Shown here: positions 8,438 through 31,597 of the stretch, piece by piece
Numbering within the stretch: the first letter of the stretch is position 1
Layout: each line of letters begins with the position of its first letter
Virus record (IMG/VR): IMGVR_UViG_3300027114_000007
Coordinates: 1 to 31,597 of that record
DNA length: 31,597 bases
Reading direction: 5' to 3' (one strand)
DNA from: a virus
Notes under the pieces: model-generated
Databases searched by the model: none
Told to the model about the DNA's origin: nothing
Seen by the model: the letters and a program-made list of their open reading frames with translations, nothing else
Translations under genes and position numbers: made by a program

Positions 8438-10441
8438 ATGGCAGCAGCGGAACAGAAAAAGTCCTATGCCGTTGTTAAACAGTTTAGAGGGCTAAACACC
8501 AAAGCTAATCGCACAGCGATTGACGAAAACGAATTTAATTGGATTGAAAATGCTCAACCGATTGGGTACGCCAATATTAAAATTATTCCCAACAGCGAGA
8601 TTGTTACTGATTCTAGTGGTAATGCCGTAGTTTTTTCTAATACGGTTACCCATTTAACCAATGTCAATATTGGCTTGAATGATTATGTTGTTGCTTTTAT
8701 GGACAATGGTTCGGCTCAGTATTACAACATTAATACCGATACCTTTGGCAATGTGGCATCCTCTGGCACTTTTAGCGCTACAGGCATTAATACTACCCAA
8801 TGGAATAACGAGCGTATGCTCATCCTTGATCCGACTAAAGGGTACTTTTCGTGGGATTCTAATAATGTTGTAACTATCGGTTCTGTTGGATTGATAGGAA
8901 TTGTTAATCAAGGTACAGGCTATACCGAAGCGCCAACCGTTACGATTAGCGCTCCAGACCAAACGGGTGGAGAACAGGCTAATGCAACAGCTACTATCTC
9001 TACAGCTAATGTAGTAACTTCAGTAGCAGTTGTAAATGCGGGTACTGGCTACACTAATGCTGCTAATTTAACGGTCACTTTTAGCGGTGGCGGAGGTGGT
9101 ACGGGTGCTAATGCCGTAGCCCAATTATTTAACTTTCAAACAGGCACGCTCTCTTTGGTGGTTATTAACGAAGGATCGGGCTACATCAACGCAGCCAATA
9201 CGATTGTGACTATTTCAGGCGGTGGCGGTGCGGGAGCTACGGCTGTACCGATTGTCCTAGGTAATGTCGTCACTCAGGTCATTATGACCAACCAAGGATC
9301 GGGTTACACCAATGCTGCCAATGTGACAGCCACGGTGTCTGGTGGCGGTGGTAATGGCGCTGTCTTGCAAGCCATTGTCAATTCTGAGCCGAATGTGGGC
9401 ATAGCGAGCTTCTCAGGGCGTGTTTGGATTGCGGCTGGTCGCACAGTCTATTACAGCGCTGCGGGGTCGTATAGCGACTTTACGAGCGTTTCTGCGGGAT
9501 CGGTTACCCTAACGGATTCTACGCTGCATGGCAACATTGTCCAGTTACTTAGCGCTAACAACTTTTTGTACATTTTTGGTGATAACTCCATTAATGTGTT
9601 TTCGGATGTACGGGTAACCAATGCTGGACTTACCTTGTTTACCAATACCAATGTGAGCGCATCGGTGGGTTCGGAGCTTAAAAACGCTATATTCCCGTAC
9701 TTCCGATCTGTTTTATTTATGAATGACTATGGGGTGTACGCCCTAGTCGGATCAACCACTTCTAAATTATCTGATCCCCTAGATGGGGTTTTCCCTAATA
9801 TTGACTTTGCAAACCCCGTTTACGCTGGTCAGGTTTTGTTAAACAACATCCTTTGCGCAGTCTTTAATTTCAGATATTTTGATGCAGTATTTACCAATAG
9901 CTATCGGTTTATCCAAGCTGTTTTCTTTGAAAAGAAATGGTTTATATCTAGCCAAGGTAACAACATTAAATACATCACTTCTGTGCCAGAGGAAGGGCAG
10001 ATTTTGGTGTATGGCACTTCAGGCAATAACCTATATCGTTTGTATGCCGATAACACCAGCTCAATTACAAGCCGTGTAAGAACTGCCTTAATGCCAATGA
10101 CCGATCCAATTCGGACTAAGCAAGCCCTTAAAATTGGTATTGAAGCGACTGCGCCCGCCAACGGCACTATTACGATGTTGGCTACGGTGGACAATGAAAA
10201 CCGTTCTAGCACGCCTTATACCTTGACTTCTGTAATTAATTGGCAAAACAATAACTTGCAAATTATTCCTTGGAACAATAACTCAGGTACAAATATTGGC
10301 TGGGGTACAACGGGGTATTCTTTATATAAAACTGATGCTCAACAGTATGGTAAATACTTAGGAATTACAGTAACATCTACTAACCCAGGGTTTGTAATCA
10401 ATGGCTTTGAGTTTGAGCATGAACTAAGAGTGAGGTTCTAG
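8438..10441 (+). CDS. Large tail hub/nozzle-type protein with internal repeats
   Basis: 667 residues, largest protein of the tail block. It opens with VVKQFRGLNTKANRTAIDENEFNWIENAQP, a beginning typical of podovirus tail proteins next to the adaptor (nozzle, or P22 gp10-like DNA-stabilising tail proteins). From about residue 155 to 316 it carries four approximately 42-residue repeats, each with a G-[TS]-G-Y-x-x-A motif and a glycine-rich turn. The C-terminal half resumes a beta-propeller-like pattern (ASFSGRVWIAAGRTVYYSAAG; FRSVLFMNDYGVYALVG) and ends GFEFEHELRVRF. Likely role: extension of the DNA exit channel, with the repeats as a surface-exposed insertion. Confidence 0.65.
   Translation: MAAAEQKKSYAVVKQFRGLNTKANRTAIDENEFNWIENAQPIGYANIKIIPNSEIVTDSSGNAVVFSNTVTHLTNVNIGLNDYVVAFMDNGSAQYYNINTDTFGNVASSGTFSATGINTTQWNNERMLILDPTKGYFSWDSNNVVTIGSVGLIGIVNQGTGYTEAPTVTISAPDQTGGEQANATATISTANVVTSVAVVNAGTGYTNAANLTVTFSGGGGGTGANAVAQLFNFQTGTLSLVVINEGSGYINAANTIVTISGGGGAGATAVPIVLGNVVTQVIMTNQGSGYTNAANVTATVSGGGGNGAVLQAIVNSEPNVGIASFSGRVWIAAGRTVYYSAAGSYSDFTSVSAGSVTLTDSTLHGNIVQLLSANNFLYIFGDNSINVFSDVRVTNAGLTLFTNTNVSASVGSELKNAIFPYFRSVLFMNDYGVYALVGSTTSKLSDPLDGVFPNIDFANPVYAGQVLLNNILCAVFNFRYFDAVFTNSYRFIQAVFFEKKWFISSQGNNIKYITSVPEEGQILVYGTSGNNLYRLYADNTSSITSRVRTALMPMTDPIRTKQALKIGIEATAPANGTITMLATVDNENRSSTPYTLTSVINWQNNNLQIIPWNNNSGTNIGWGTTGYSLYKTDAQQYGKYLGITVTSTNPGFVINGFEFEHELRVRF
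8897..9385 (+). repeat. Four imperfect protein-level repeats in the tail protein
   Basis: Each unit of roughly 42 codons reads approximately VVxxGxGYxxAAxxxVTxSGGGGxGAxAxA. The units start near residues 154, 197, 241 and 283 with GTGYTEAP, GTGYTNAAN, GSGYINAAN and GSGYTNAAN. DNA copies have diverged, so this is a protein repeat rather than a recent tandem duplication. Confidence 0.75.
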
Positions 10442-11016
10442 TGACAAAACCAGTATCCGCAGTTCCAAATGTATTCCAAAATGCTACAACCACCTTACCG
10501 TTGTCGCAGTTGGATAGCAATTTCACAACAATTACAAACGAACTTAACGATTTAAACAATTACAGCAATTTTAGCCCTGATACTGGCACAGCCAACGCTA
10601 TTGTTTGTAACTTTCCAGCGGGTATTACGACTACTACAATTGCTACGGGTTGCGAAATTAGCTTTGAAGCAGCCAACGCTAACACGGGCGCTACCACTTT
10701 ATTGGTCCAAGTCAATTCCGTTACCATTTTAGCTGCTACTGCGGTCAAAAATGAAGATGGATCAGCGTTATCGGGTGCTGAATTTAGGCTTGGCGGTATT
10801 TATACGGTAGTGTATGACGGTACTTATTGGGTTTTAGCGGGTGGTGGCGGTGGTGGCGGTGCTGAAGCTGGTGGTGCAATCTATGAAAACACCCAGTCAA
10901 TCAATGCAAACTACACCATAACCACAAATAAAAATGGTTTTAGCGTAGGACCGATCACCGTAGCGAGTGGAGTTACGGTTACCGTGCCGTCTGGCTCACG
11001 CTATGTAATTATGTAA
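10441..11016 (+). CDS. Tail fibre / tail-associated protein with conserved C-terminal motif
   Basis: 191 residues, GTG start overlapping the preceding TAG by one base. The N-terminus includes LPLSQLDSNFTTITNELND, a leader seen in many phage fibre proteins that attaches the fibre to the tail. A beta-rich middle and a polyglycine hinge (GGGGGGG at about residues 137-143) follow. The last 35 residues, ending ITVASGVTVTVPSGSRYVIM, form a common fibre C-terminus also present in the long fibre at 15396. The protein may be a short fibre or the tail-proximal part of a split fibre. Confidence 0.65.
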   Translation: MTKPVSAVPNVFQNATTTLPLSQLDSNFTTITNELNDLNNYSNFSPDTGTANAIVCNFPAGITTTTIATGCEISFEAANANTGATTLLVQVNSVTILAATAVKNEDGSALSGAEFRLGGIYTVVYDGTYWVLAGGGGGGGAEAGGAIYENTQSINANYTITTNKNGFSVGPITVASGVTVTVPSGSRYVIM

Positions 11017-11026
11017 AGGACAATAT

Positions 11027-11587
11027 ATGAGCATTGTTTTAGTAGGTTCAACTTCAGGTAGCGTTACATTACAAGAACCAGCCGTTGCTGGTACTACTGT
11101 ATTAGACTTGCCAGCCGTATCAGGAACAGTTCTTACTACAGGCACTACTGGTCAAGTTATTGCTAGTGGTGCTTTACCAATAGGTAGTGTATTGCAAGTG
11201 GTTAATGCTACTTACGGAACTGCAACAACAACTGCATCAGGAACTTATACCGACACAGGATTGACTGCAACCATTACTCCTAAATTTGCAACAAGCAAAA
11301 TTCTTGTTTTGGTCAATCAAGCTGGTTGTAACGCACAAACAAACACAAATGGTGTAAATGTCCAACTTGTAAGAAATTCAACAGGATTAGGCACTTTTGC
11401 GGCTTATTATTCATATACTACTGGTGGTTCAATTTGTGGTGCATCAATTAGCTATTTGGATAGTCCAGCCACTACTTCTGCTACAACCTATAAAACTCAA
11501 CAAGCTAGGGCGTCAGGAGCAGGAAATGTGCAAACACAATCTAATGATGCTTTATCTACAATTACTTTAATGGAGATTGCCGCATGA
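11027..11587 (+). CDS. Fibre-like protein A (first fibre cassette)
   Basis: 186 residues, beta-rich and Thr/Ser/Ala/Gly-rich with little charge. The N-terminus (MSIVLVGSTSGSVTLQEPAVAG, DLPAVSGTVLTTG) is a recurring phage fibre leader; the C-terminal half (residues about 65-186) looks like a globular beta receptor-binding head (TGLTATITPKFATSKILVLV, STGLGTFAAYYS). It overlaps the following small gene by 4 nt (ATGA), which suggests coupled production of fibre and partner. Receptor unknown. Calling it a receptor-binding protein is inference from composition and place. Confidence 0.65.
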   Translation: MSIVLVGSTSGSVTLQEPAVAGTTVLDLPAVSGTVLTTGTTGQVIASGALPIGSVLQVVNATYGTATTTASGTYTDTGLTATITPKFATSKILVLVNQAGCNAQTNTNGVNVQLVRNSTGLGTFAAYYSYTTGGSICGASISYLDSPATTSATTYKTQQARASGAGNVQTQSNDALSTITLMEIAA

Positions 11588-11862
11588 TTGATTTATCTTC
11601 AGCAATTTTAAAACTTTATCAACAAGTCGTTGTTGTTCGTGGCGATGTCGCTTACGATGCAAACGGCAACGAAGTCGCATACGATAAAGCCGCAGTTCAG
11701 GCTTATGTAGATGCTCATGCTTATATTGCTAAACGAGCCGCAGAATATCCGCCAGTCACAGACTACCTCGATGCAATAGTAAAGGGCGACCAAGCACAGA
11801 TTGATAAATACATTGCTGACTGCTTGGCGGTCAAGGCTAAGTATAAAAAGGGAGTAGCATAA
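11584..11862 (+). CDS. Small fibre-associated protein, candidate assembly chaperone A
   Basis: 92 residues, starting in an ATGA overlap with fibre-like protein A. The C-terminal half has the pattern YPPVTDYLDAIVKGDQAQID then ADCLAVKAKYKKG, which I recognise from small proteins encoded after phage fibre genes (similar to the XkdW-like or tail-fibre-assembly groups). It has no signal or membrane segment. The likely job is folding, trimerising or attaching the neighbouring fibre, but this is inferred from family resemblance and synteny. The GIY-YIG gene follows directly with no gap. Confidence 0.6.
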   Translation: MIDLSSAILKLYQQVVVVRGDVAYDANGNEVAYDKAAVQAYVDAHAYIAKRAAEYPPVTDYLDAIVKGDQAQIDKYIADCLAVKAKYKKGVA

Positions 11863-12612
11863 GTGTTCTTTACTTACGCACACTACAAGCCTGAAGGCGG
11901 TCTTTTCTACATAGGAAAAGGCAAGCGTAGGCGTGCGTATGCTATGGATGGGCGTAACTCTCATTGGCAGAATATTGTCAATAAATACGGCAGACCCCAT
12001 GTAGAACTGCTTGCTCGTTGGGATACTGAACAGGAAGCACTTGACCACGAAAAGCTGTTGATTTCATGCTTTAGGGATATGGGCTATCAGTTAGCTAACA
12101 AAGCCGATGGCGGTACGGGTGCATCAGGTTACAAGTTTACCGATGAGCAAAAGAAAAATTTATCATTAGCCCACATGGGTCAAGTCGCTTGGAATAAAGG
12201 CAAAAAGTCAAATACTGTTATTTGGAACAAAGGCTTGCCAATGGCTAAAAATGCCGCACAAGCACTTTCTGTAAAAGTTAGTTGTGTAAATTGCCGCAAA
12301 GAGGGCAGGATTGGCAATATTCTTGGTGCACACGCAAAGTGGTGTAACAATGTAAAGCCGTATAGAGCAAGGGCTACCATTAACGGAAAGCGTATAACTA
12401 TTGGTCGTTTTGAAACCAAAGAAGAAGCACAAACATTTCAAGATAATTATTACAAAGAACACAATATTGTTCGCACATCTTGGAACAAAGGCACTAAAGG
12501 TGTAATGACCGCATGGAATAAAGGAATACCAATGTCTGAAGCATCTAAACAAAAATTAAGCGAATCTCAACTTAAACGATTCAGAAAGGCTCTACAATGC
12601 CAAGTGTCATAA
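11863..12612 (+). CDS. GIY-YIG homing endonuclease with NUMOD3-type repeats
   Basis: 249 residues, GTG start immediately after the upstream TAA. The GIY-YIG nuclease is at residues about 1-85: Y-A-H-Y near position 5, FYIGKG (15-20), an Arg cluster (22-24), catalytic-type Glu in DHEKLLI (63) and Asn in LANKADGGTG (79). Four WNKG motifs of the NUMOD3 type occur at about 110, 121, 207 and 218. Between them are a CxxC...H...C zinc-finger candidate (Cys141, Cys144, His157, Cys161) and an AP2-like stretch (about 167-198). The last 16 nt overlap fibre-like gene B. Probable free-standing homing endonuclease cutting a related fibre region in competing phages. Confidence 0.85.
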   Translation: MFFTYAHYKPEGGLFYIGKGKRRRAYAMDGRNSHWQNIVNKYGRPHVELLARWDTEQEALDHEKLLISCFRDMGYQLANKADGGTGASGYKFTDEQKKNLSLAHMGQVAWNKGKKSNTVIWNKGLPMAKNAAQALSVKVSCVNCRKEGRIGNILGAHAKWCNNVKPYRARATINGKRITIGRFETKEEAQTFQDNYYKEHNIVRTSWNKGTKGVMTAWNKGIPMSEASKQKLSESQLKRFRKALQCQVS

Positions 12613-13229
12613 ATGCCACAACCACCAATGGGGTGACAGTTCAGGGCGATAACTCAGGCTCATTACAGTTAGCAACCAATAACGGCACGACTGCTTTAAC
12701 GATTAACACCTCGCAAGGTGTGTCGGTATTAAACTGTTTAGGTGTGGGTAACGCTACCCCATCTACTAGCGGTGCTGGTATTACATTCCCAGCTACTCAA
12801 TCAGCAAGCACAGACGCTAATACGCTAGATGATTATGAGGAAGGGAGCTGGACACCAACAATTAAAGGTGCTTCTACTGCTGGAACTTCTACTTATTCGG
12901 TTCAAACTGGTAAATATATAAAAATTGGAACGCTTGTTTTTATAACTTGTTATGTAACATGGAATACTGCTAATGGAACTGGAAATTTAAGAATTGGTGG
13001 TTTACCTTTTGCTGGTTCAAATGCTGGTGTGTATCAAGGGCTTACTTTATCGGGAATTTCAAGTGTTAGTGGTTCTACATCAGGTTACACATGGTTTGGA
13101 AGAATTAACAATGGCGAAAGCGAAATTTCTATTAAATATGCAAATTTTGCAACAACCACTCCTAATGATGGCGATATTGCTGTATGTAATTCAGGAACTC
13201 TTTTATTTACTGGAACATACACTATTTAA
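12597..13229 (+). CDS. Fibre-like protein B (second fibre cassette)
   Basis: 210 residues; start inside the end of the GIY-YIG gene (CTACAATGCC), with AGAAAGG upstream as a weak ribosome site. The N-terminal segment (QGDNSGSLQLATNNGTTALTI) and the central LDDYEEGSWTPTI followed by TGKYIKIGTLVFI are both modules I recognise from many phage fibre proteins; the second usually begins a C-terminal beta domain used in receptor contact. Low charge, beta-rich throughout. It is followed by a small partner gene after 9 nt, as in cassette A. Confidence 0.7.
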   Translation: MPSVINATTTNGVTVQGDNSGSLQLATNNGTTALTINTSQGVSVLNCLGVGNATPSTSGAGITFPATQSASTDANTLDDYEEGSWTPTIKGASTAGTSTYSVQTGKYIKIGTLVFITCYVTWNTANGTGNLRIGGLPFAGSNAGVYQGLTLSGISSVSGSTSGYTWFGRINNGESEISIKYANFATTTPNDGDIAVCNSGTLLFTGTYTI

Positions 13230-13238
13230 GGAAATAAA

Positions 13239-13502
13239 ATGGCACTTTCAGAATCAACAAAAATTGACCAAATCGAAGTCGTAAACGATTGGAGTATTCA
13301 TGTTCGTCAGGCTACCATTATTGAAAGAGATGGTGAGTTTGTATCTCGCACCTTTCATCGTTGGGTATTAACTCCTGATTCCGACATTAGCGGTCAAGAA
13401 CAAAAGGTTCAAGACATTGCTAATGCCGCATGGACACCCGAAGTTCGCCAAGCATACGAAACATTTAAGGCTGAACAAGCCAATAGATTAGGAGTCGCAT
13501 AA
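13239..13502 (+). CDS. Small fibre-associated protein, candidate assembly chaperone B
   Basis: 87 residues. The sequence IDQIEVVNDWSIHVRQATII, FVSRTFHRWVLTPDSDISGQ and the helical tail TPEVRQAYETFKAEQAN match a small protein type common next to phage tail or fibre genes. Good AAGGAAAT ribosome site. It shares its last base with the start of the HNH gene (TAATG). Role unknown, but the repeated arrangement fibre then small protein in three consecutive cassettes points to a fibre partner or assembly factor. Confidence 0.6.
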   Translation: MALSESTKIDQIEVVNDWSIHVRQATIIERDGEFVSRTFHRWVLTPDSDISGQEQKVQDIANAAWTPEVRQAYETFKAEQANRLGVA

Positions 13503-14014
13503 TGCCTATAACCTTAGACGGCACAGCACAACGCTTTAATGAAGCGTTTGAGTACCGCAATGGCGAACTGTATTGGAAAATTAATACCAATCCATCAAAG
13601 CGTCTAATCGGTAAGCGTGCTGGTTGTATGTCTAGTATGTATGGTGTAGTAAACCTAGATGGTCAGGCTTACTGTATCCATAAGGTAATTTTCTGTATGC
13701 ATCATGGTTATATGCCTGAAGTGGTTGACCATATTAACGGAGTTAAAAAAGACCACAGAATTGAAAACTTGCGTGCCGCCAATCACCAATCGAATAATTG
13801 GAACAAGACTGTGCAAAGCAACAATAAGTTAAGAATGAAGAACATTAGTTGGCACAAGCAAAACAAGAAGTATTGGGTGCAGATTACCCAAAATAGAAAG
13901 AAAGTTTACAGTCAAATGTTTGATGATTTAGAACTTGCCGAACTTGTAGCTGTCATGGCAAGAGAAAAATATCATGGTAAGTTTGCTAATCATGGAGAAT
14001 TTAAATGCCAGTAA
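13502..14014 (+). CDS. HNH homing endonuclease with AP2-like domain and fibre-like leader
   Basis: 170 residues. The first eight residues, MPITLDGT, resemble the starts of fibre genes. Residues about 14-45 (FEYRNGELYWKINTN, IGKRAG) are a usual N-terminus of phage HNH endonucleases. The HNH core is at about 60-95: His60, the VVDHING motif with His77, and Asn89 in RIENLRAANHQSN. The C-terminal part (about 115-165, WVQITQNRKKVYSQMF then AREKYHGKFAN) resembles an AP2 DNA-binding domain. The final 10 nt overlap the next fibre gene. It is likely a free-standing homing endonuclease targeting fibre loci. Confidence 0.85.
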   Translation: MPITLDGTAQRFNEAFEYRNGELYWKINTNPSKRLIGKRAGCMSSMYGVVNLDGQAYCIHKVIFCMHHGYMPEVVDHINGVKKDHRIENLRAANHQSNNWNKTVQSNNKLRMKNISWHKQNKKYWVQITQNRKKVYSQMFDDLELAELVAVMAREKYHGKFANHGEFKCQ

Positions 14015-14835
14015 TTATTGATGGTACAAACGGGGTCAACACACCCAATACCTTTGCATTCAAGAATCGCATCATTGATGGCGGTTTCACCATAAACCAG
14101 CGTGGCTATACATCAGGCACTTCACTATCGTCAGGTTCTTACGGACACGACAGATGGAAGGGCGGTGCAAGCGGTGGCACATATACCTTTACACAAGGCT
14201 CTACTGGTGTTAATACGACCATTACAATTACTGCTGGTTCTATTATTCAAGTCATTGAAGGTGCTAACTTACCCGAAGGTGGCACTTATGTTTTATCGTG
14301 GACAGGCACAGCACAAGGCAAGATTGGTGCTGGTAGCTTTGGTGCAAGCGGAATAACAGGAACAATTACTGCGGGAACAAACACTAACATTGAGTTCAAC
14401 ACAGGAACTTGTGGCAATGTGCAATTAGAGGTAGGCTCTACAGCTACTAGCTTTGATTACAGACCTTATGGAACTGAATTGGCTTTGTGTCAGAGGTATT
14501 ATGAAAAGTCTTTTAACATCGGAACTGCACCAGCAAACGGAATTGAATCTCCTGATAGAAGGCAAATGGTTGCCTATGCCACTACTGAAATTGGCTATCA
14601 ATCTATGTTTCAAGTTTCAAAACGCACTAGCCCAACAATGACTTTATTCATAGATTTAAACGCAGGCACAAACGGACAATGGTCTTACTATAATGGTAGT
14701 GCTTGGACAACTATGACAACTTCTGGTTTTAGAAATACAACACAAGAGTTTCGTATTGATTTTATTGTTACTGGTAGAACTTTTGGGCAAGCCTTAATTG
14801 GTGCTGGTAATTGGACAGCAAGTGCGGAGTTATGA
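14005..14835 (+). CDS. Fibre-like protein C (third fibre cassette)
   Basis: 276 residues. Opens with MPVIIDGTNGVNTP, a classic fibre leader, then FKNRIIDGGFTINQRGY, the start of a jelly-roll, carbohydrate-binding-like domain seen in many phage fibres; that domain ends at about residue 150 with CGNVQLEVGSTATSFDYRPYG and LCQRYYEK. Residues 160-276 form a further beta-rich head (RTSPTMTLFIDLNAG, SYYNGSAWTTM). Probably recognises surface sugars of the host. The start overlaps the end of the HNH gene (TTTAAATGCCAG) and the stop lies just before or overlaps its small partner gene. Confidence 0.75.
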   Translation: MPVIIDGTNGVNTPNTFAFKNRIIDGGFTINQRGYTSGTSLSSGSYGHDRWKGGASGGTYTFTQGSTGVNTTITITAGSIIQVIEGANLPEGGTYVLSWTGTAQGKIGAGSFGASGITGTITAGTNTNIEFNTGTCGNVQLEVGSTATSFDYRPYGTELALCQRYYEKSFNIGTAPANGIESPDRRQMVAYATTEIGYQSMFQVSKRTSPTMTLFIDLNAGTNGQWSYYNGSAWTTMTTSGFRNTTQEFRIDFIVTGRTFGQALIGAGNWTASAEL

Positions 14836-14837
14836 TT

Positions 14838-15044
14838 ATGTATAAACTATTAAAAAATAAATTAAGCAATACAGAAACAAGCGTTCAACGTTTAGCTGAT
14901 GGTGCTTTAATTCCATTCGACCCCGCCAACACCGACTACCAAAACTTTAAAAAACAAGTTTTAGATGGTGCAGAACTGCAAGATGCCGATGGGAATGTGA
15001 TGACACAAGCTGAAGCGGATGCCTTTATAGCCACGCTGCCATAA
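14838..15044 (+). CDS. Small fibre-associated protein, candidate assembly protein C
   Basis: 68 residues from ATG 14838; I prefer this start because GGAG (14826-14829) then has a usable 8-nt spacer, while the alternative ATG at 14832 overlaps the fibre stop and sits only 2 nt from GGAG. Sequence features are VQRLADGALIPFDPANTDYQ and FKKQVLDGAELQDADGNVMT, a pattern known in small proteins encoded after fibre genes. Acidic, soluble. Proposed role is help in fibre folding or attachment, inferred from the position and the repeated cassette layout. Confidence 0.6.
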   Translation: MYKLLKNKLSNTETSVQRLADGALIPFDPANTDYQNFKKQVLDGAELQDADGNVMTQAEADAFIATLP

Positions 15045-15053
15045 GGAGAGATC

Positions 15054-15386
15054 ATGGGAATCAATGCCTTTACCAAGACTGGCAACACAGTAACTTTCCT
15101 AGCGAATACTACGCAACCAGCACCCGTTCAATGCCTATCATCAACGCTTGGTGGTAACCAGTATCGCATTATTAATACGAGTTCTAATGTAATCGTTTTT
15201 TTGGCGTATGGCACAACTTCTGCGGAAGCCAATGCAAACTGTCAGATTATTACCAGTTCGCAAAATGCTTTACCCATTCTGCCGACAACCGATGAGATTC
15301 TAACTTTTGTACCCAATGCGTATTTCACAGGAATTACGGCTTCTGGCAACGCAACAATTTACATCACTCCTGGTGATGGACTGTAA
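15054..15386 (+). CDS. Small beta-rich protein, paralogue of the 23860 gene
   Basis: 110 residues, strong AAGGAGAG ribosome site. Beta-sandwich-like: NQYRIINTSSNVIVFLAYGTTS then GITASGNATIYITPGDGL. The same framework occurs in the 116-residue product at 23860 (NQLRIHNGTAGEVFIRCGTTS and GTATVYVTPGEGL), so the two are diverged paralogues. It lies between fibre C cassette and the long fibre. Probably a structural or adhesion-linked protein; precise role unknown. Confidence 0.6.
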   Translation: MGINAFTKTGNTVTFLANTTQPAPVQCLSSTLGGNQYRIINTSSNVIVFLAYGTTSAEANANCQIITSSQNALPILPTTDEILTFVPNAYFTGITASGNATIYITPGDGL

Positions 15387-17190: not shown

Positions 17191-17571
17191 ATGGCTACGA
17201 AACCACTTTCCCCCTCCCCAGAAAAAATGGAAAATGACGCACCGCAACAAGTTGACACGGATGTCATGGCTTTAATCAAGCGCAAAGAATCTCCAGAGCA
17301 ATCTCCTGAGGTCTTAAAAGCAAAGAACGACTTACGCAGAATTATTAAGCAAGTAGGTATTGATCCAATGCGTATTGTGATGGCGGGTAAATATGCAGAA
17401 GAAGCCTTAACCAATCCAGCTATGTACCCTATTGCTATTGAGGTTGCAATTAGAGAAAATCTTATATCAGAGAAAGACATAGAACCAGGTGGGATTAATT
17501 ACAAGTTATTAGCTGCTGGGATAACGGCTGGTAAGTTAACACAAGAGTTATTAGATGAAGGAGCGCTCTAA
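17191..17571 (+). CDS. Hypothetical protein before the ejection-protein block
   Basis: 126 residues. N-terminal 25 residues are Pro/Ser/Glu-rich and probably disordered; the rest is helical (VLKAKNDLRRIIKQVGIDP, EEALTNPAMYPIAIEVAIRE) with an acidic end. It ends in a one-base overlap with the next gene, the first of four large candidate ejection proteins, so it may belong to the same virion-interior group. No family recognised and no membrane segment. Confidence 0.6.
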   Translation: MATKPLSPSPEKMENDAPQQVDTDVMALIKRKESPEQSPEVLKAKNDLRRIIKQVGIDPMRIVMAGKYAEEALTNPAMYPIAIEVAIRENLISEKDIEPGGINYKLLAAGITAGKLTQELLDEGAL

Positions 17572-18374
17572 TGGGACAAGCCACACCCGTAATTTTTGCC
17601 GTAGTAGCTATAGTTGCTACTGTTTACGCTGGACCAGCCGTAGGTGCTGCCATTATGAACAGCATGGGCGTAGCTGGAGCTAGTGCAGCGACTACCGCTG
17701 CTGTTGGTGCTGCTGCCATTAGTGGTGCAACTAGCGCTGTCAATACTGCCGTAGCTGGTGGAAATATTGGCGATGTCTTAAAAGCGGGCGCAATTGGCGC
17801 TGCTGCGGGTGGAGCTGGCGGTGCTGCTGGATCACAGCTTGGTGCTGGTGCAAGCGCAGCGGCTAGAGGTGCTGTATCTGGCGCTACTAGCGGTGCAGTA
17901 GGATCAGCTTTGCGTGGTCAAGATGTTGGGCGTGGCGCACTCATAGGGGGTGTTTCTGGCGGTATAGCGGGTGCTGTAACAAGCGGTCTTACCGATACCA
18001 GCATTGGCGATGTCGAAGCCCAAGAAGGTGGGTTTTACGGAGAAGAAGGCGTTGCTGGCACAAGCACGGGATTAAGCCCAGAATTAGCCCGCTTTGTGGG
18101 TAGTGCTGCTGGTCGTACAGCAGCCCAATTCACAGCGCAAAACTTAGCTCCTAGCCAAACTGGAACTCAAGCACCTCCGCCAACGGGTCAAGTGTCAACC
18201 CCACCACCCATGGGGGATGCAACCACTACAGGACAACCATCACCAGGATCATCAGCATTAGCCCAAGCGCTAAGAGCTGGCTCTCCCGTGATCGGTGGCG
18301 GTGGAGAACAAACTACTGGTCGCCCAGTTTGGAATATTGCTTCATTGCGTGTTAAAGACGAAACAGGGAGTTAA
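17571..18374 (+). CDS. Ala/Gly-rich internal virion protein candidate (with GDVEAQEGGFYG motif)
   Basis: 267 residues. Residues about 5-140 are extremely Ala/Gly-rich with glycine-zipper-like spacing and hydrophobic runs (VIFAVVAIVATVYAGPAVG, GALIGGVSGGIAGAVTSG), suggesting membrane insertion or tight helix packing, as in ejected pore-forming phage proteins. Residues 146-157 hold GDVEAQEGGFYG, also found in the next gene product. The C-terminal 80 residues are Pro/Thr/Gln-rich and disordered, with a short end IASLRVKDETGS. It would be packaged and ejected with the DNA to build a channel; this is inferred from composition and order. Confidence 0.6.
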   Translation: MGQATPVIFAVVAIVATVYAGPAVGAAIMNSMGVAGASAATTAAVGAAAISGATSAVNTAVAGGNIGDVLKAGAIGAAAGGAGGAAGSQLGAGASAAARGAVSGATSGAVGSALRGQDVGRGALIGGVSGGIAGAVTSGLTDTSIGDVEAQEGGFYGEEGVAGTSTGLSPELARFVGSAAGRTAAQFTAQNLAPSQTGTQAPPPTGQVSTPPPMGDATTTGQPSPGSSALAQALRAGSPVIGGGGEQTTGRPVWNIASLRVKDETGS

Positions 18375-18376
18375 TA

Positions 18377-19429
18377 ATGGCTAAACTTTTAATGAAATCT
18401 TTGAGTGCTGATTTACCAGCATTAGCAGAGTTAATCCGTTCTCAAGGTCGTGGAAGGGATACGGTTTTAGCCCACATTACCCCTCAAGAAGCAGCCCTTT
18501 TAAAGAAGCGTGGTGGTTCAGGATCAATGAATCCGTCAACGGGATTACCTGAGTTTCAAGAAGATTACAGCTATGACATTGGCTTTGGTGAAGGTGTTTA
18601 TAACCCGCCTGTAGAATCATACGACACTCAGGGAGCAGACTTTACTCCTCAACAAGTGCAAGATTATGGCTATACCACGCCCATGGATTACTATTCTGGT
18701 GGCGCTGGCGCTGGTGGTTTTACTCCAGCTCCAGGTGTGGCAGAGGATATTTTTCAAGCGCAAGCTCCCGCATTTGGCGGTGATGTAGAAGCGCAAGAGG
18801 GTGGTTTTTATGGTGGTCGTACCCCAACGGCTGCTGAATTTGCAAGAGCGCAGCCAGGGTTTGAGGAAGCTGTTGCGCCATCACGAAGCGTAATGGATCG
18901 CTTGGGCATTAGCCAAAAAGATTTACCTCGCCTTGGTTTAGGTGCATTGCTAACAGGCGGCTTAACTGCTCAAAACCTAGCAAGAACCCGTCAAGCCCAA
19001 CAACAAGCAGAAGCATTCAAGGAAGAATTAGCAGCCCTTGGCAGACCATATCAGCAAACTGGCGCACAACTTAGGGGTGCTGCCGAGCGTGGCGAACTAA
19101 GCCCAGTCAACCGCCAAATATTAAATGCTGCTAGAGCGCAACTTCAACAAGGTGTTGCAACCCGTGGTGGTGTAGGTGCTGCTCAAGCTCAAAACCAAAT
19201 AGCCGATTTAACGCAGCGTTTGGTTCAAAACCAATTTGACCTAGGATTGCGGATTAGTAATATTGGCGATCAATATATCCAAGGTGCTATTCGTACTGGT
19301 TTACAGGCAGATCAAGCCATCAATGCTGCAAATCAACAGTTTTATAGCCAATTAGCACAGATGGCTGCTCCGTTTATTCTTGGTCAAGCACCCGTTTACC
19401 AAGTAACCACGCCAGTTAGGAGAGGGTAA
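18377..19429 (+). CDS. Internal virion/ejection protein candidate with two shared motifs
   Basis: 350 residues. N-terminus is a basic helix (MAKLLMKSLSADLPALAELI). Low-complexity acidic/aromatic stretch follows, with DIGFGEGVYNP at about 67-77 (shared with the start of the next protein) and GDVEAQEGGFYG at 135-146 (shared with the previous protein). Residues about 190-350 are Gln/Ala-rich helices (TRQAQQQAEAFKEELAALG, RAQLQQGVATRGGVGAAQAQ), a composition common to podovirus internal core proteins. It lies between two similar genes with 1-2 nt spacing. No enzyme motif seen. Confidence 0.6.
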   Translation: MAKLLMKSLSADLPALAELIRSQGRGRDTVLAHITPQEAALLKKRGGSGSMNPSTGLPEFQEDYSYDIGFGEGVYNPPVESYDTQGADFTPQQVQDYGYTTPMDYYSGGAGAGGFTPAPGVAEDIFQAQAPAFGGDVEAQEGGFYGGRTPTAAEFARAQPGFEEAVAPSRSVMDRLGISQKDLPRLGLGALLTGGLTAQNLARTRQAQQQAEAFKEELAALGRPYQQTGAQLRGAAERGELSPVNRQILNAARAQLQQGVATRGGVGAAQAQNQIADLTQRLVQNQFDLGLRISNIGDQYIQGAIRTGLQADQAINAANQQFYSQLAQMAAPFILGQAPVYQVTTPVRRG

Positions 19430-24213: not shown

Positions 24214-24666
24214 ATGTCAGACGAACTGGGGTTATCTGCTGGCGCTAAAGGCATCAGCGAGGGGATCAAAACAGGTCGTGAAGCTGGTCGGGAGATTGGC
24301 AAGAACATTGAAGAAGTACAGAAAGAAGCAGTTGATGTAGCAAGACAAAGAGCGCAAGCAAAGATTCGTGAGCGCAGAGAAGCAGAGTTAAAGAAGGAAC
24401 GGGCAATATTTAAAGCCCTTGAGGAGTACAAATACCGTAAACAAATTACGGATGAGGAGTACAAACTAAGGGTAGATTTTGTCAAGAAGTACGGCACTAA
24501 AGAGTGGGATAAGTTAATACAGATTAAGACTGAAATTGAGAAGCTGGAAAAGGCAGACAAAGATTATTTTGATGCCGAGTTGTCAAAGGTTCGCTCGGTA
24601 CAGTTTTGGTGTTTTATGGCAGCAGCTTGGATTGCTTATTTTATTGTATGGGGGAGTAAAAAATGA
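24214..24666 (+). CDS. Coiled-coil, C-terminally membrane-anchored protein
   Basis: 150 residues. Residues about 10-120 are a long, highly charged helix (IKTGREAGREIGKNIEEVQK, AKIRERREAELKKERAIFKA, IQIKTEIEKLEKADKDYFD); residues about 127-146 are a single membrane segment (VQFWCFMAAAWIAYFIVW) followed by GSKK. A tail-anchored coiled coil within a lysis cassette could be a holin regulator or spanin-like element, but an inner-membrane spanin normally has an N-terminal TM, so this is uncertain. It overlaps the following holin gene by 4 nt (ATGA). Confidence 0.6.
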   Translation: MSDELGLSAGAKGISEGIKTGREAGREIGKNIEEVQKEAVDVARQRAQAKIRERREAELKKERAIFKALEEYKYRKQITDEEYKLRVDFVKKYGTKEWDKLIQIKTEIEKLEKADKDYFDAELSKVRSVQFWCFMAAAWIAYFIVWGSKK

Positions 24667-25076
24667 TTCCGCTAATGGCACTAGTCGATGTTGGGATGAA
24701 AGTCCTAGACAAGTTTATCCCCGATCCTGAAGCCAAAGCCAAGGCTCAAAAAGAACTCTTACAGATGCAACAAGAAGGCAGACTAGCAGAGCTTAATGCC
24801 GACAATATAGAAACCCAAGAACTTACTAAACGGGCGCAAGCGGATATGGCTAGTGATTCTTGGCTATCCAAGAACATTAGACCAATGACCTTAATCTTTA
24901 TTTTGTTTGTTTACACCAGTTTTGCTGGCTTATCCGCTGCCGAAATTGAAGTCAACAATAACTATGTAGAACTGCTTGGTCAATGGGGTATGCTCATTAT
25001 GAGCTTTTACTTTGGTGGTAGAACCCTCGAAAAGATTATGGACATGAAAGCTAAGAAAAATGATAACCCCGCTTAG
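24663..25076 (+). CDS. Holin of the three-TM (Holin_3TMs) family
   Basis: 137 residues. N-terminal helix with a hydrophobic start, then KVLDKFIPDPEAKAKAQKEL and a charged middle; residues about 75-95 (SKNIRPMTLIFILFVYTSF) and 108-123 (GQWGMLIMSFYFGGRTLEKI) are membrane segments. The NIRPMT and YFGGRTLEKI signatures are those I know from the Holin_3TMs family, first described for gene transfer agent release. It would open the inner membrane to let the endolysin out. Overlaps the endolysin gene by 17 nt, so the two are translated together. Confidence 0.8.
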   Translation: MIPLMALVDVGMKVLDKFIPDPEAKAKAQKELLQMQQEGRLAELNADNIETQELTKRAQADMASDSWLSKNIRPMTLIFILFVYTSFAGLSAAEIEVNNNYVELLGQWGMLIMSFYFGGRTLEKIMDMKAKKNDNPA

Positions 25077-25494
25077 TCTGCACTTTACTCTTGAGGAGTT
25101 AACCCATACCGATCATCGGCAGTTTGACAACACCCCAAACGCAGACGAACTAGCAAACCTTACCCGCCTTGCTAAGTTCTTAGAGCAAGTTAAAACTGCA
25201 CTAGGTGGTAAGCCAGTAATGATTAATTCCGCTTTCCGTAGTAAAGCCGTGAATGATGCTGTTGGAAGCCGAGATTCCAGCCAACACCGAATTGGGTGCG
25301 CTGCTGACATTCGTGTGCCAGGCATGACCCCTGATGAGGTGGTCAAGGCTGTGATGGCTGCTGGCTTAGGATACGATCAAATCATTCGGGAGTTTGACCG
25401 CTGGACACATATCTCGATCCCTAACAACCCAGAGGACAAGCCACGCCAACAGGCTTTAATTATTGATCGGACTGGTACTAGACAATATGCCTAA
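25060..25494 (+). CDS. M15-type peptidase endolysin
   Basis: 144 residues, a single-domain enzyme. Zinc-binding layout of the M15 (Peptidase_M15_3) group: His76 in SSQHRIGCAADI, Asp83 in the same stretch, and His117 in RWTHISI; the preceding SAFRSKAVNDAVG is also characteristic. It would cleave peptide cross-links of peptidoglycan at the end of infection. No signal peptide, so release depends on the overlapping holin gene upstream. Slightly shorter than many M15 endolysins and without a cell-wall-binding domain, as is usual for Gram-negative hosts. Confidence 0.85.
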   Translation: MITPLSLHFTLEELTHTDHRQFDNTPNADELANLTRLAKFLEQVKTALGGKPVMINSAFRSKAVNDAVGSRDSSQHRIGCAADIRVPGMTPDEVVKAVMAAGLGYDQIIREFDRWTHISIPNNPEDKPRQQALIIDRTGTRQYA

Positions 25495-29512: not shown

Positions 29513-29776
29513 TCAGAATGGTACTTCACCGTCATTGGCATTGGTTTCTCTGGGGTACTGCTGGGGGTTTTGTGGTTTCCAAGTATCCTCAGACAAGCTA
29601 ATCAACTGCCCTTTAGGGGTGTTCTTAGTCCAGCCAGCAATCTTGAGTGTTTGACCCGCTTTGTAGTCCTCAGAAAGCAAGAGTGTACCCTTCCAATCGG
29701 GTGCTTTCTCATGCTTCTTATCAGCGTTACCAAACAATACGCCTTTGCCCATCTGGGCGATATGTCCATTACTCAT
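29513..29776 (-). CDS. Small protein, possible ssDNA-binding or DUF736-like
   Basis: 87 residues from ATG 29776, which overlaps the RecT stop by one base (TGATG) and has AGGAGAG in front. Beta-rich: KGVLFGNADKKHEKAPDWKG, then LKIAGWTKNTPKGQLISLSE and an acidic end (NANDGEVPF). An acidic terminal tail and small OB-like size fit a ssDNA-binding protein partner of RecT and exonuclease, while the KAPDW and GW motifs recall the DUF736 group. Neither assignment is firm. Confidence 0.6.
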   Translation of the reverse strand: MSNGHIAQMGKGVLFGNADKKHEKAPDWKGTLLLSEDYKAGQTLKIAGWTKNTPKGQLISLSEDTWKPQNPQQYPRETNANDGEVPF

Positions 29777-30615
29777 CAATCTCTCCTTATTTCAGCTATT
29801 TTGGTTAAAAACTTCGATGTTTGCGTACCACTAAATGTCTTTGTAAAGGCATCATTGGCAGCACGCAATTGGTTGTACTTCTTGGTTTTCTCTTTATCGT
29901 CATACTTACTTGAGTTTTGGATACGACTAAAGATGTCTAAAAACCCCTCAATCCAATCCTCTAGGGATAAGTAGGTTGCATAGGGTTCTTCTTGACCTGG
30001 CACATACAGATGGAGTTTATGGACATGGGCAGCAAAGTTACCCTTGACCATGGGTGGTGCTACTTCCCCGCTATCTTCGTCAATGGTAAGCTCATCGCTT
30101 TTAATCTCTGAGAGGTTGACAGCCTTTCCCATGTCTTTGGGTTCGAAATCAGCCACTTCTTCAGGGCTGTAGAACCCTGTAACTGATCCAGGAAAGACGC
30201 TTCGTATACCTTCTGAAATGCACCTGGATCGTAGCATTGCCCTTGGGAACTTTTGCCAGCCCGAGCCTGGTTTGACCAGCCCGATCTTGCTTGCTTGTTC
30301 GATTGTCCAGGTAACGGCAAGCTCTCCACCGTTGGGGTGACTAAATACGCCTGTAACTTGTTCATCTGTGTAATCCTTCCATTGAACTTTACCGCCCGCA
30401 TTTTGAAACCTTGCTAGCATCGCATCGGCTTTTAATGCTGGTCTGCCTTGAATGATATGAAAATCCCGTGCTGCTGTGGCGGGGTGCATACCTTCCGCTT
30501 GTGCTACTGCCATTAGCGCTAGTACGCTATTGGTATCCTTCATGCCGAATAAACCGCTTTTGGCTATTGCTTCTGCCATCTGCGACATATCGGTAAAACT
30601 CACAATATTGCTCAT
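29776..30615 (-). CDS. recT: RecT-type single-strand annealing protein
   Basis: 279 residues from ATG 30615, which has AAGGGGATAAG right in front; another ATG at 30630 is less well placed. The core EGMHPATAARDFHIIQGRPA, then ALKADAMLARF and AMLRSRCISEGIRSVFPGSV, is typical of the RecT/Bet-like recombinase superfamily. It would anneal homologous single strands made by the exonuclease encoded just upstream in transcription order. C-terminal 90 residues are helical and charged (KYDDKEKTKKYNQLRAANDA). Part of an exonuclease, RecT, small binding protein, RusA order. Confidence 0.85.
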   Translation of the reverse strand: MSNIVSFTDMSQMAEAIAKSGLFGMKDTNSVLALMAVAQAEGMHPATAARDFHIIQGRPALKADAMLARFQNAGGKVQWKDYTDEQVTGVFSHPNGGELAVTWTIEQASKIGLVKPGSGWQKFPRAMLRSRCISEGIRSVFPGSVTGFYSPEEVADFEPKDMGKAVNLSEIKSDELTIDEDSGEVAPPMVKGNFAAHVHKLHLYVPGQEEPYATYLSLEDWIEGFLDIFSRIQNSSKYDDKEKTKKYNQLRAANDAFTKTFSGTQTSKFLTKIAEIRRD

Positions 30616-30639
30616 CTTATCCCCTTTCATTAGGTGTCT

Positions 30640-31542
30640 TTACTTCACTAAAAATCTACGACTGCCAGGCTGCTCAATCACAAACTGCTCGTAAATGTCG
30701 GGCATTGCTTGTTTAAAGAGATCACTTGAGAAGCGCTTACTGCTCTTACTACTGCGCCAGGTTACTAAGGTATCTCCTGAGATGGATACGATCTCACCCT
30801 TATCTCCCATGGTGTTGCGGATTGCTACCTCTATTGCTTCGCTCTGATCCTCAAGCGCTTTGATGCTAGCCTTGTATTGCTTGAGCTGGGCGACTGCTAC
30901 CTCTACATTTTGCGTTGCAACAATCGTTTCATCGGTGCTGGTTGGATATACCAGTTTGGTTTGCTCTATGGTTTCTGCGGGTGGTAGGGTGTCGGTCTTG
31001 CAATACGCCCATAACTTCGCCATACGCTGCACCAGGTCATCTTTCATACCCTCGGTGATGTCAAACTCAATGGTTACAAATTCGTTTCCACCAAATAGAA
31101 CAGCCAAAAATATACGATGGATATTATGACAAGCAGATTCGTGTATGAGCTGGGCAAGGTCAGCATCAGGAATCCGATTAGCATCGGCATCAAACTTATT
31201 ACGAACTCCAGCATTATAGTTTTTAGCTTCAACAAGCACAGTACCATCTGCGCTAATGAAATCAAAATGAGAACGCATCCAATTGTGTTTGGGGTGAGTG
31301 AGAGCATAGTCCGCTTCCTTTAACTCCATCTTATGTTTGTCTTGAAACAAGCGCCCAATGACAGGCTGCATGATATGACCCATCTGTACCGCTTCCACAT
31401 CGGATAAGTCAGGCGCTTCTCGTTTACCTTGCTTGGTGAGTATGACATCCACCGCACGACCATTGGCAGCCATGCGGGAATCACCAGACCACCAGGCGCT
31501 ATTGCGTACCTCTGGCGCAAAGTCTGTTTGAGCATTAGCCAT
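30640..31542 (-). CDS. YqaJ-type viral exonuclease
   Basis: 300 residues. Second of two adjacent ATGs chosen (31542), because AGGGG is then 6 nt away; 31545 is the alternative. The nuclease fold has QMGHIMQPVIGRLF (about 54-67), the acidic residue in RSHFDFIS (about Asp94) and VLVEAKNYN (Glu105, Lys107), followed by a helix with DLAQLIHESACHN. This is the YqaJ/lambda-exonuclease-like layout. It degrades 5' ends to give single strands for RecT, 24 nt downstream. The C-terminal 100 residues are helical with a coiled-coil-like stretch (VAQLKQYKASIKALEDQSEA). Confidence 0.85.
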   Translation of the reverse strand: MANAQTDFAPEVRNSAWWSGDSRMAANGRAVDVILTKQGKREAPDLSDVEAVQMGHIMQPVIGRLFQDKHKMELKEADYALTHPKHNWMRSHFDFISADGTVLVEAKNYNAGVRNKFDADANRIPDADLAQLIHESACHNIHRIFLAVLFGGNEFVTIEFDITEGMKDDLVQRMAKLWAYCKTDTLPPAETIEQTKLVYPTSTDETIVATQNVEVAVAQLKQYKASIKALEDQSEAIEVAIRNTMGDKGEIVSISGDTLVTWRSSKSSKRFSSDLFKQAMPDIYEQFVIEQPGSRRFLVK

Positions 31543-31597
31543 CATGCACCCCTAGTAATGATATTGAGTAGTGCAATTAGATGATTAACTTGCTTAC
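31542..31597 (-). CDS. Partial upstream gene, 3' end (frame uncertain)
   Basis: Reading from the right edge on the minus strand, one frame stays open (KQVNHLIALLNIITRGA) and ends at TGA 31544-31542, which shares its last base with the exonuclease start. This TGATG junction is the same as others in this operon, so it may be the end of an upstream gene. Only 17 codons are visible and no product can be named. Confidence 0.35.
   Translation of the reverse strand, partial: KQVNHLIALLNIITRGA

Follow-up and report, generated by a model that had tools for sequence, protein, structure and literature searches.

A three-slot array of predicted fibres and homing endonucleases in unrelated freshwater phages

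Introduction

How phages change their host range by swapping parts of their fibres is a long-standing question. Exchange associated with homing endonuclease genes (HEGs) is itself already known. In T4, free-standing HEGs co-convert the DNA that flanks them (PMC2988022), and in HEG-islands (Barth, Dunham and Seed 2023, PMC10448857) homing endonucleases are found at exchange boundaries, with high nucleotide identity between otherwise dissimilar phages. Here we describe a block of fibre genes in the IMG/VR record IMGVR_UViG_3300027114_000007, a 31.6-kb viral contig that we call the window. A sequence-only reading had reported, along the plus strand, fibre A with a 92-residue partner, a GIY-YIG endonuclease, fibre B with an 87-residue partner, an HNH endonuclease and fibre C with a 68-residue partner; all eight genes are present in this order and on this strand (Table 1). 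We think that the three-slot fibre array described below is of interest in its own right.

The HEG-islands resemble this block in several ways (PMC10448857). The class of HEG is interchangeable at one location, HNH-3 HEGs occur in tail operons, and two HEGs bracket a cargo, as the GIY-YIG and HNH genes of the window bracket fibre B and its partner. However, the near-identical tract found here spans 0.98 kb, not >10 kb, and lies outside the GIY-HNH bracket. Bracketed cargo in HEG-islands shows >90% identity, whereas relatives of fibre B outside the window phage reach 63%. The cargo of the window also differs in consisting of predicted receptor-binding fibres, and the HNH open reading frame (ORF) opens with a captured fibre start.

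The intronless homing of the T4 Seg and Mob enzymes (PMC2988022) is alike in having a free-standing HEG between genes, HEG-less alleles in relatives and co-conversion of the flanks. The T4 enzymes cut hundreds to thousands of base pairs away, whereas the insertion point in the window is a conserved coding motif that the HEG splits; in this respect the HNH insertion point is closer to intron-type homing sites. An HNH gene in the methylase gene of mycobacteriophage ShiLan (PMC11855218) also lies in a phage coding gene without an intron or intein, but it is out of frame inside that gene, while the window HNH is in frame with a fibre start and has a complete fibre gene behind it. In Alteromonas phages A5 and V22 (PMC10579305) a fibre and its downstream partner likewise move together between unrelated phages. 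That module has one fibre, however, with no endonuclease reported, and the tested chaperones have 195-240 residues, compared with about 50-110 for the putative partners in window-type arrays. In our literature search neither the slot rule nor fibre-start capture turned up; most subscription papers lay outside this search, so it is weak evidence of novelty.

Results

The array has three slots

We compared the block with about 450 loci. Our interpretation, to which we give a probability of about 0.7, is that it is a three-slot array of receptor-binding fibres, that the HNH and GIY-YIG endonucleases home at the slot boundaries, and that the HNH has replaced slot-3 shafts across phage groups.

In the window's phage group, exactly three fibre genes are found in 26 of the 29 complete blocks (four in two blocks, two in one). 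Their N-terminal signatures are ordered N1, N2, N3: 60 of 78 positions are concordant, where permutation gives a mean of 20 and a maximum of 40. A pattern-free test used nearest neighbours, always taken from a block with a diverged backbone. The slot of the neighbour agrees in 70 of 72 comparisons of the first 50 residues, but in only 51/78 for the remainder of the fibre and 36/53 for the partner. A second locus set provides a fair test, because the N-terminal patterns were written on the first. In these held-out loci N1 is followed by N2 84 times, N2 by N3 71 times and N1 by N3 13 times, with the reverse order seen only 8 times. Several of them stem from shared contigs and are not independent; after deduplication, N1 N2 N3 stands in 55 of 99 distinct arrays, and most of the others are incomplete. 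The three slots are fixed and their N-termini are slot-specific, while heads and partners mix between slots. The sequence-only reading had pictured cassettes being gained, and this did not hold up, as the number of cassettes does not grow. For the adaptor gene a docking-motif pattern was too strict and was dropped, and gene order was used instead.

The same array is found on other backbones. Examples are contig L178, whose matches to head-tail adaptor, capsid and tail families we take to be of T7 type, and L182, which carries DNA polymerase, primase-helicase and ribonucleotide reductase genes; the window capsid and portal proteins have no match in either. The window and phages G001, G007, G013 and G005 have little in common apart from the fibre block and some genes of the lysis region. 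Identity to the G007 counterparts is 87% for the holin and 66% for the endolysin (window 24663-25494; L290 4927-5752). These lysis genes seem to have been exchanged too, because G007 is without the window capsid or portal protein.

Closer relatives bear out the suggestion that the cassettes are exchangeable. Locus L003 is 97% identical to the window in the upstream tail protein and 92-100% identical in four downstream proteins, with other cassettes between and no endonuclease. Comparing presence and absence across related genomes, the block is not a fixed unit; the flanks are kept and the content between them differs. For example, L005 has the GIY gene only and the phage MW202753 has neither endonuclease. 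We rejected the idea that HEGs are required for shuffling: the endonuclease is not needed for exchange, because most shuffled arrays carry none.

The HNH gene opens with a captured fibre start

The captured start became visible only by comparison with endonuclease-free phages. The first 24 nt of the HNH ORF, which encode MPITLDGT, are the exact 5′ end of slot-3 fibre genes in such phages, and a pattern search of viral contigs returned 26 records that have this DNA at the start of a fibre gene and lack an HNH there. Together with up to 15 nt upstream, these 24 nt match endonuclease-free fibre genes at 95-100%. Paired empty and occupied sites (L275 and L266 with L182; L277 with the window; L287 and L284 with L177 and L180; L278 with L176) match for up to 39 bp, and the match always ends at the same base, after GACGGCACA. 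This common breakpoint places the HNH insertion in frame after codon 8 of the slot-3 fibre gene. The alleles inside the 24 nt differ (ATGCCAATTACC or ATGCCTATAACC) in step with the context, and a second complete fibre start, MPVIIDGTNG in the window, follows downstream of the HNH. The putative HNH target is the DNA spanning ACCTTAGACGGCACA/AACGGAATAAC, which the insertion would split; an empty slot-3 start reads GGAGTCGCATAATGCCTATAACCTTAGACGGCACAAACGGAATAAC.

Other HNH genes open with other fibre N-termini, as independent in-frame captures: L183 (MTYGTVQANAIQGS...), L185 (MSQVRVNTIVDANSGNTAQINGMTPTADSL) and L235 (MTVSISGTGGVTFPDNSVQATAATGL), the last matching the fibres of L216-L218 at 90% over 20 residues. 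A different HNH family lies at the 3′ end of the slot-3 partner (L186 4819-5580, L189 2684-3442, L191 4828-5577). In these three loci about 46-51 nt of the partner gene end recur behind the HNH stop, clearly above both controls only in L189. These elements seem habitually to capture a gene end and rebuild the gene. Genes other than fibres may be subject to start capture as well, because the HNH of L146 (5278-6064) opens with METKLYR, as does the small non-fibre gene that follows immediately. In L285 and L286, where the fibre start is MPITLDGT, the slot-3 fibre gene stops at codon 33 and is either degraded or interrupted by an unrecognised insertion.

The HNH and the fibre C shaft form a tract shared between backbones

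Across the HNH and the first 480 bp of fibre C, identity to the window is 99.3% in L175, L178 and L181, 99.1% in L179, about 98% in L176 and L177, and 97% in L180; the HNH of L177 is identical to that of the window base for base. The tract is thus near-identical on backbones where no homologous capsid or portal protein was matched. The ends of the tract are constant. In every case the drop to background identity comes immediately upstream of the HNH start codon on one side and at the hinge, around 14480-14500, on the other; the predicted receptor-binding head of fibre C lies outside. Across four distinct phages there are 11 mismatches in 2052 bp of HNH and 53 in 1868 bp of the fibre C part (p 7e-9), a gradient that would be expected for conversion centred on the endonuclease.

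As controls, endonuclease-free relatives of fibre C reach only 81%, and relatives of fibres A and B outside the window phage only 64% and 63%. The tract count is biased towards the HNH, because the HNH was the query that retrieved loci L175-L184; the fibre C query is the fairer test for shared tracts. No head relatives beyond the hinge were found among the loci compared, and so no donor of the fibre C head. It had been proposed that an endonuclease carries its neighbouring fibre along. This stands for the HNH and the 5′ (shaft) half of fibre C, but not for the head, the partner or a whole cassette.

Endonucleases lie at the slot boundaries

The window HNH and GIY-YIG genes are predicted to encode free-standing homing endonucleases, with domain matches well beyond chance. 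The HNH matches phrog_99 (E 8.7e-55) and the Pfam family HNH_3 (PF13392, 44.3 bits, cut-off 24.8). The GIY-YIG matches the homing endonuclease family phrog_314 (E 4.7e-16) and NUMOD3 (32.7 bits, cut-off 20.4), and the Pfam GIY-YIG model (LEM-3) falls below its cut-off. Both genes abut or overlap both neighbours by a few bases; a HEG that overlaps neighbouring start and stop codons is known elsewhere (PMC8861465). The HNH lies outside any intron or intein, partner B and fibre C being complete ORFs that it overlaps by 1 and 10 nt. Alleles that lack the insertions exist for both enzymes: slot-3 starts without an HNH (L263-L288) pair with occupied sites, and in L175 and L191, which lack the GIY, partner A passes directly into the slot-2 fibre start.

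Endonuclease-neutral queries retrieved 51 arrays, 17 with an endonuclease and six of them with two. That the endonucleases are spaced at cassette boundaries, as previously read from the window, is true of these arrays in general, where they occur only there. None of the 42 distinct HNH or GIY insertions lies at a fibre-partner junction, compared with 228 of the 493 unoccupied junctions (p 5e-12). The subfamilies are boundary-specific, with the window GIY type at the slot 1/2 boundary in 6/6 cases and the window HNH type before slot 3 in 8/8, and other endonuclease families lie ahead of slot 1 or on either side of slot 3. Outside the window's array type, in L051 and L072, GIY genes do sit between a fibre and a small gene.

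Fibre and partner proteins

Fibre C matches a tail-fibre family (phrog_4492, E 3.4e-39). Fibre A has no family match and fibre B matches only PHROGs of unknown function; a B-like relative matches a tail-fibre PHROG. In the structural model of fibre A (mean predicted local distance difference test score, pLDDT, 82) the N-terminus is of low confidence, and residues 53-186 form a confident beta-sandwich. Among solved structures the model best matches the Pgp3 C-terminal domain and TNF-like lectins, and its best viral matches are uncharacterised phage proteins. A profile search with fibre A leads to the C-terminal region of 9efk orf22, a solved protein of 658 residues. We therefore predict that fibre C, by homology to phrog_4492, and fibre A, by its TNF-like lectin fold, are receptor-binding tail fibres. 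In an attempt to identify the host, relatives of fibre A in genome contigs proved to be mostly from metagenome bins.

Across loci, DNA resembling the window occurs only in islands. These are the N-terminus of fibre A, its last codons together with partner A, the hinge of fibre B, partner B, the HNH, fibre C as far as base 14500, and partner C. For the heads of fibres B and C there are almost no DNA relatives. This pattern fits recombination at short conserved stretches. The three partners had been assigned to three different small families, and they do match three different sets of PHROG families, all of unknown function; they track classes of fibre, however, and not individual heads, because the partner islands are conserved where heads differ. 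On this DNA evidence we rejected the idea of partners being specific to a single head each. The partners are probably an assembly aid, and the N-terminal slot peptides are probably the docking part of the fibres. As to a relation to Tfa-like tail fibre assembly chaperones, the partner B model is confident and gave no significant fold match, and a PDB sequence search gave no match for partner A, nor for the HNH or fibre C.

Phage context

Contig L083 (5415 bp) is 100% identical to window positions 9440-14854, so the gene order is unlikely to be an assembly error. The window phage is not T4-like, and the annotated phages closest to it are two from Manatee Spring, of 34-36 kb. The window also encodes a distant portal protein and a capsid protein with remote similarity to the one in Myxococcus phage Mx8. 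Its RecE-like and RecT-like proteins make up a complete phage recombination pair, which could support exchange at short homologies.

Some further observations may be of use to annotators. The homologue of the 667-residue tail protein in MW202753 (L001 4960-6948) is annotated 'baseplate wedge initiator', a name that is doubtful because the family matches of the window protein are mainly to repeat regions. Two adjacent proteins of the window, at 17571-18374 and 18377-19429, contain an identical 12-residue stretch. The record PQ492659 (L289), Limnohabitans phage DC33, is filed under Inoviridae, and its paper reports an icosahedral tailed particle (PMC12195039).

Table 1. Positions of the fibre block and other features discussed, in window coordinates
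Feature	Position	Strand	Remarks
Conserved tail protein, 667 aa	8438..10441	+	left anchor of block; conserved in relatives fetched with tail protein; MW202753 homologue 68% identical
Adaptor protein p191	10441..11016	+	last ~45 aa are a motif common to the gene before the array in T7-like L178 and other unrelated backbones
Slot-1 fibre A (fibA), 186 aa	11027..11587	+	slot-specific N-terminus (~45 aa); predicted TNF-like lectin head 53-186; conserved C-terminal TLMEIAA
Partner A (parA), 92 aa	11584..11862	+	phrog_9114/2687; behind A-class fibres on several backbones
Predicted GIY-YIG + NUMOD3 free-standing endonuclease, 249 aa, GTG start	11863..12612	+	subfamily only at slot 1/slot 2 boundary, 6/6
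Slot-2 fibre B (fibB), 210 aa	12597..13229	+	N-terminus class 'D(N)SG.LQL'; conserved DDYEEGSW hinge; unique head
Partner B (parB), 87 aa	13239..13502	+	phrog_6228; model b-b-b-a-a, pLDDT 92
Predicted HNH_3 free-standing endonuclease, 170 aa	13502..14014	+	subfamily only before slot-3 fibres
Captured fibre start ATGCCTATAACCTTAGACGGCACA (MPITLDGT), in frame with HNH ORF	13502..13525	+	exact match to slot-3 fibre starts of endonuclease-free phages; left half of putative homing site
Slot-3 fibre C (fibC), 276 aa	14005..14835	+	opens with MPVIIDGTNG; shaft conserved as far as about residue 165, head variable; 10-nt overlap of its ATG with the HNH stop
Conserved hinge YRPYGTELALCQRYYEKS in fibre C	14426..14506	+	right border of shared tract
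Near-identical tract, HNH + fibre C shaft	13502..14481	+	common to contigs of otherwise unrelated phages
Partner C (parC), 68 aa from ATG (77 aa from upstream TTG)	14838..15044	+	phrog_20370/34019
Conserved 110-aa protein	15054..15386	+	right anchor of block in window's phage group
RecT-like annealing protein	29776..30630	-	phrog_561 E 2.3e-27; candidate recombinase for mosaic exchange
RecE-like exonuclease	30640..31545	-	phrog_434 E 5.4e-44

Discussion

From the slot rule, the boundary rule, the captured start and the cross-backbone tract with its gradient, all of which are observed, we propose the following model. A short N-terminal peptide would be particular to each slot; behind it would come a shaft and head that can be swapped and, in most cases, a small partner. 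Heads, fibres and partners would be reshuffled mainly by homologous recombination at the short conserved islands (N-terminus, hinge and partner), possibly helped by the phage's own RecE and RecT. The homing sites of the GIY-YIG and HNH enzymes would lie at the slot boundaries. The HNH would invade slot-3 fibre genes at their 5′ end, inserting in frame behind codon 8 and using the fibre's own start codon; the invaded gene would stay whole because the HNH brings a second, differently spelled fibre start and shaft at its 3′ side. By homing into HNH-less phages it may have replaced slot-3 shafts across phage groups and left different heads in place.

Could the endonucleases be mere passengers? Ordinary homologous recombination at the islands, by RecET or the host RecA, would then do the work, and the endonucleases would persist at boundaries since insertion elsewhere breaks a fibre or a partner. 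Such a view sits well with the conserved islands at N-termini, hinges and partners, with the phage's own RecE and RecT genes, with lysis genes that are also common to an otherwise unrelated phage, and with arrays that lack an endonuclease and are equally shuffled. We consider it unlikely, as passengers would not be expected to fall into subfamilies that keep to single boundaries, nor to carry, in several contexts, a fibre start that was captured exactly. Just one long tract of near identity between backbones was found; it includes the HNH, and, among loci whose retrieval favoured the HNH, it is less diverged there than in the flank. A different challenge is that the three genes encode some other decoration of the virion and not receptor-binding fibres, for which the absence of a family match for fibre A and of functional annotation for the fibre B matches might be cited. 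This strikes us as quite improbable given the tail-fibre PHROG matches of fibre C and of the B-like relative, the lectin-like fibre A head with its profile match to the C-terminal region of 9efk orf22, and the hypervariability of the heads.

The endonucleases may also serve the phage, by cutting the fibre genes of competitors during co-infection (marker exclusion), with the recoded start giving protection to its own gene. This would add to our explanation, and the spelling MPVIIDGT of the fibre C start beside the HNH, compared with the invaded MPITLDGT, is in line with it. There are precedents in T4 (PMC2988022) and in the interference reported for PhiPA3 (PMC11620839). However, the genomic signature of marker exclusion is indistinguishable from that of selfish homing, and we regard it as possible but rather doubtful. 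A tentative extension of our model, with somewhat less than an even chance of being correct, is that a common three-slot docking standard lets unrelated phages trade fibre parts and that the conserved, slot-specific starts became homing sites for several boundary-specific endonucleases. The HNH would then be a natural 'home-and-rescue' drive that breaks the fibre start of a competitor, supplies a recoded but intact start with its shaft, and so converts the fibre, with the head kept. The sequence-only reading had suggested a system for gaining or replacing receptor-binding modules. Such a function is conjectural; a selfish element that takes advantage of conserved fibre starts accounts for these facts as well.

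Several points count against the array with homing endonucleases as we interpret it. No endonuclease is found in 34 of the 51 arrays, and these are shuffled nevertheless; HEG detection was limited to two enzyme classes. The N-terminal patterns were written after part of the data had been seen, a problem that the unsupervised and held-out tests lessen but do not remove. The near-identical tract occurs in about four distinct phages only, and stronger purifying selection on the HNH would push the mismatch gradient in the same direction. An original duplication is not preserved at the window HNH, because its left and right starts belong to different fibre types, and a local DNA alignment for a target duplication there was not significant. 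Finally, cleavage at the split motif, homing, the docking and partner roles and the presence of the fibres in virions are all deduced from sequence.

The results bear on how fibre parts are swapped among phages. Unrelated freshwater phages carry the same three-fibre set in a fixed order, with predicted endonucleases only at the joins. The points of exchange can be seen here, in slot-locked N-termini, hinges and partner genes, on several backbones of environmental phages. The empty and occupied HNH sites provide a concrete and testable candidate for a homing site inside a fibre gene. Furthermore, the slot rule is a means to annotate many of the 'hypothetical' genes in freshwater phage genomes.

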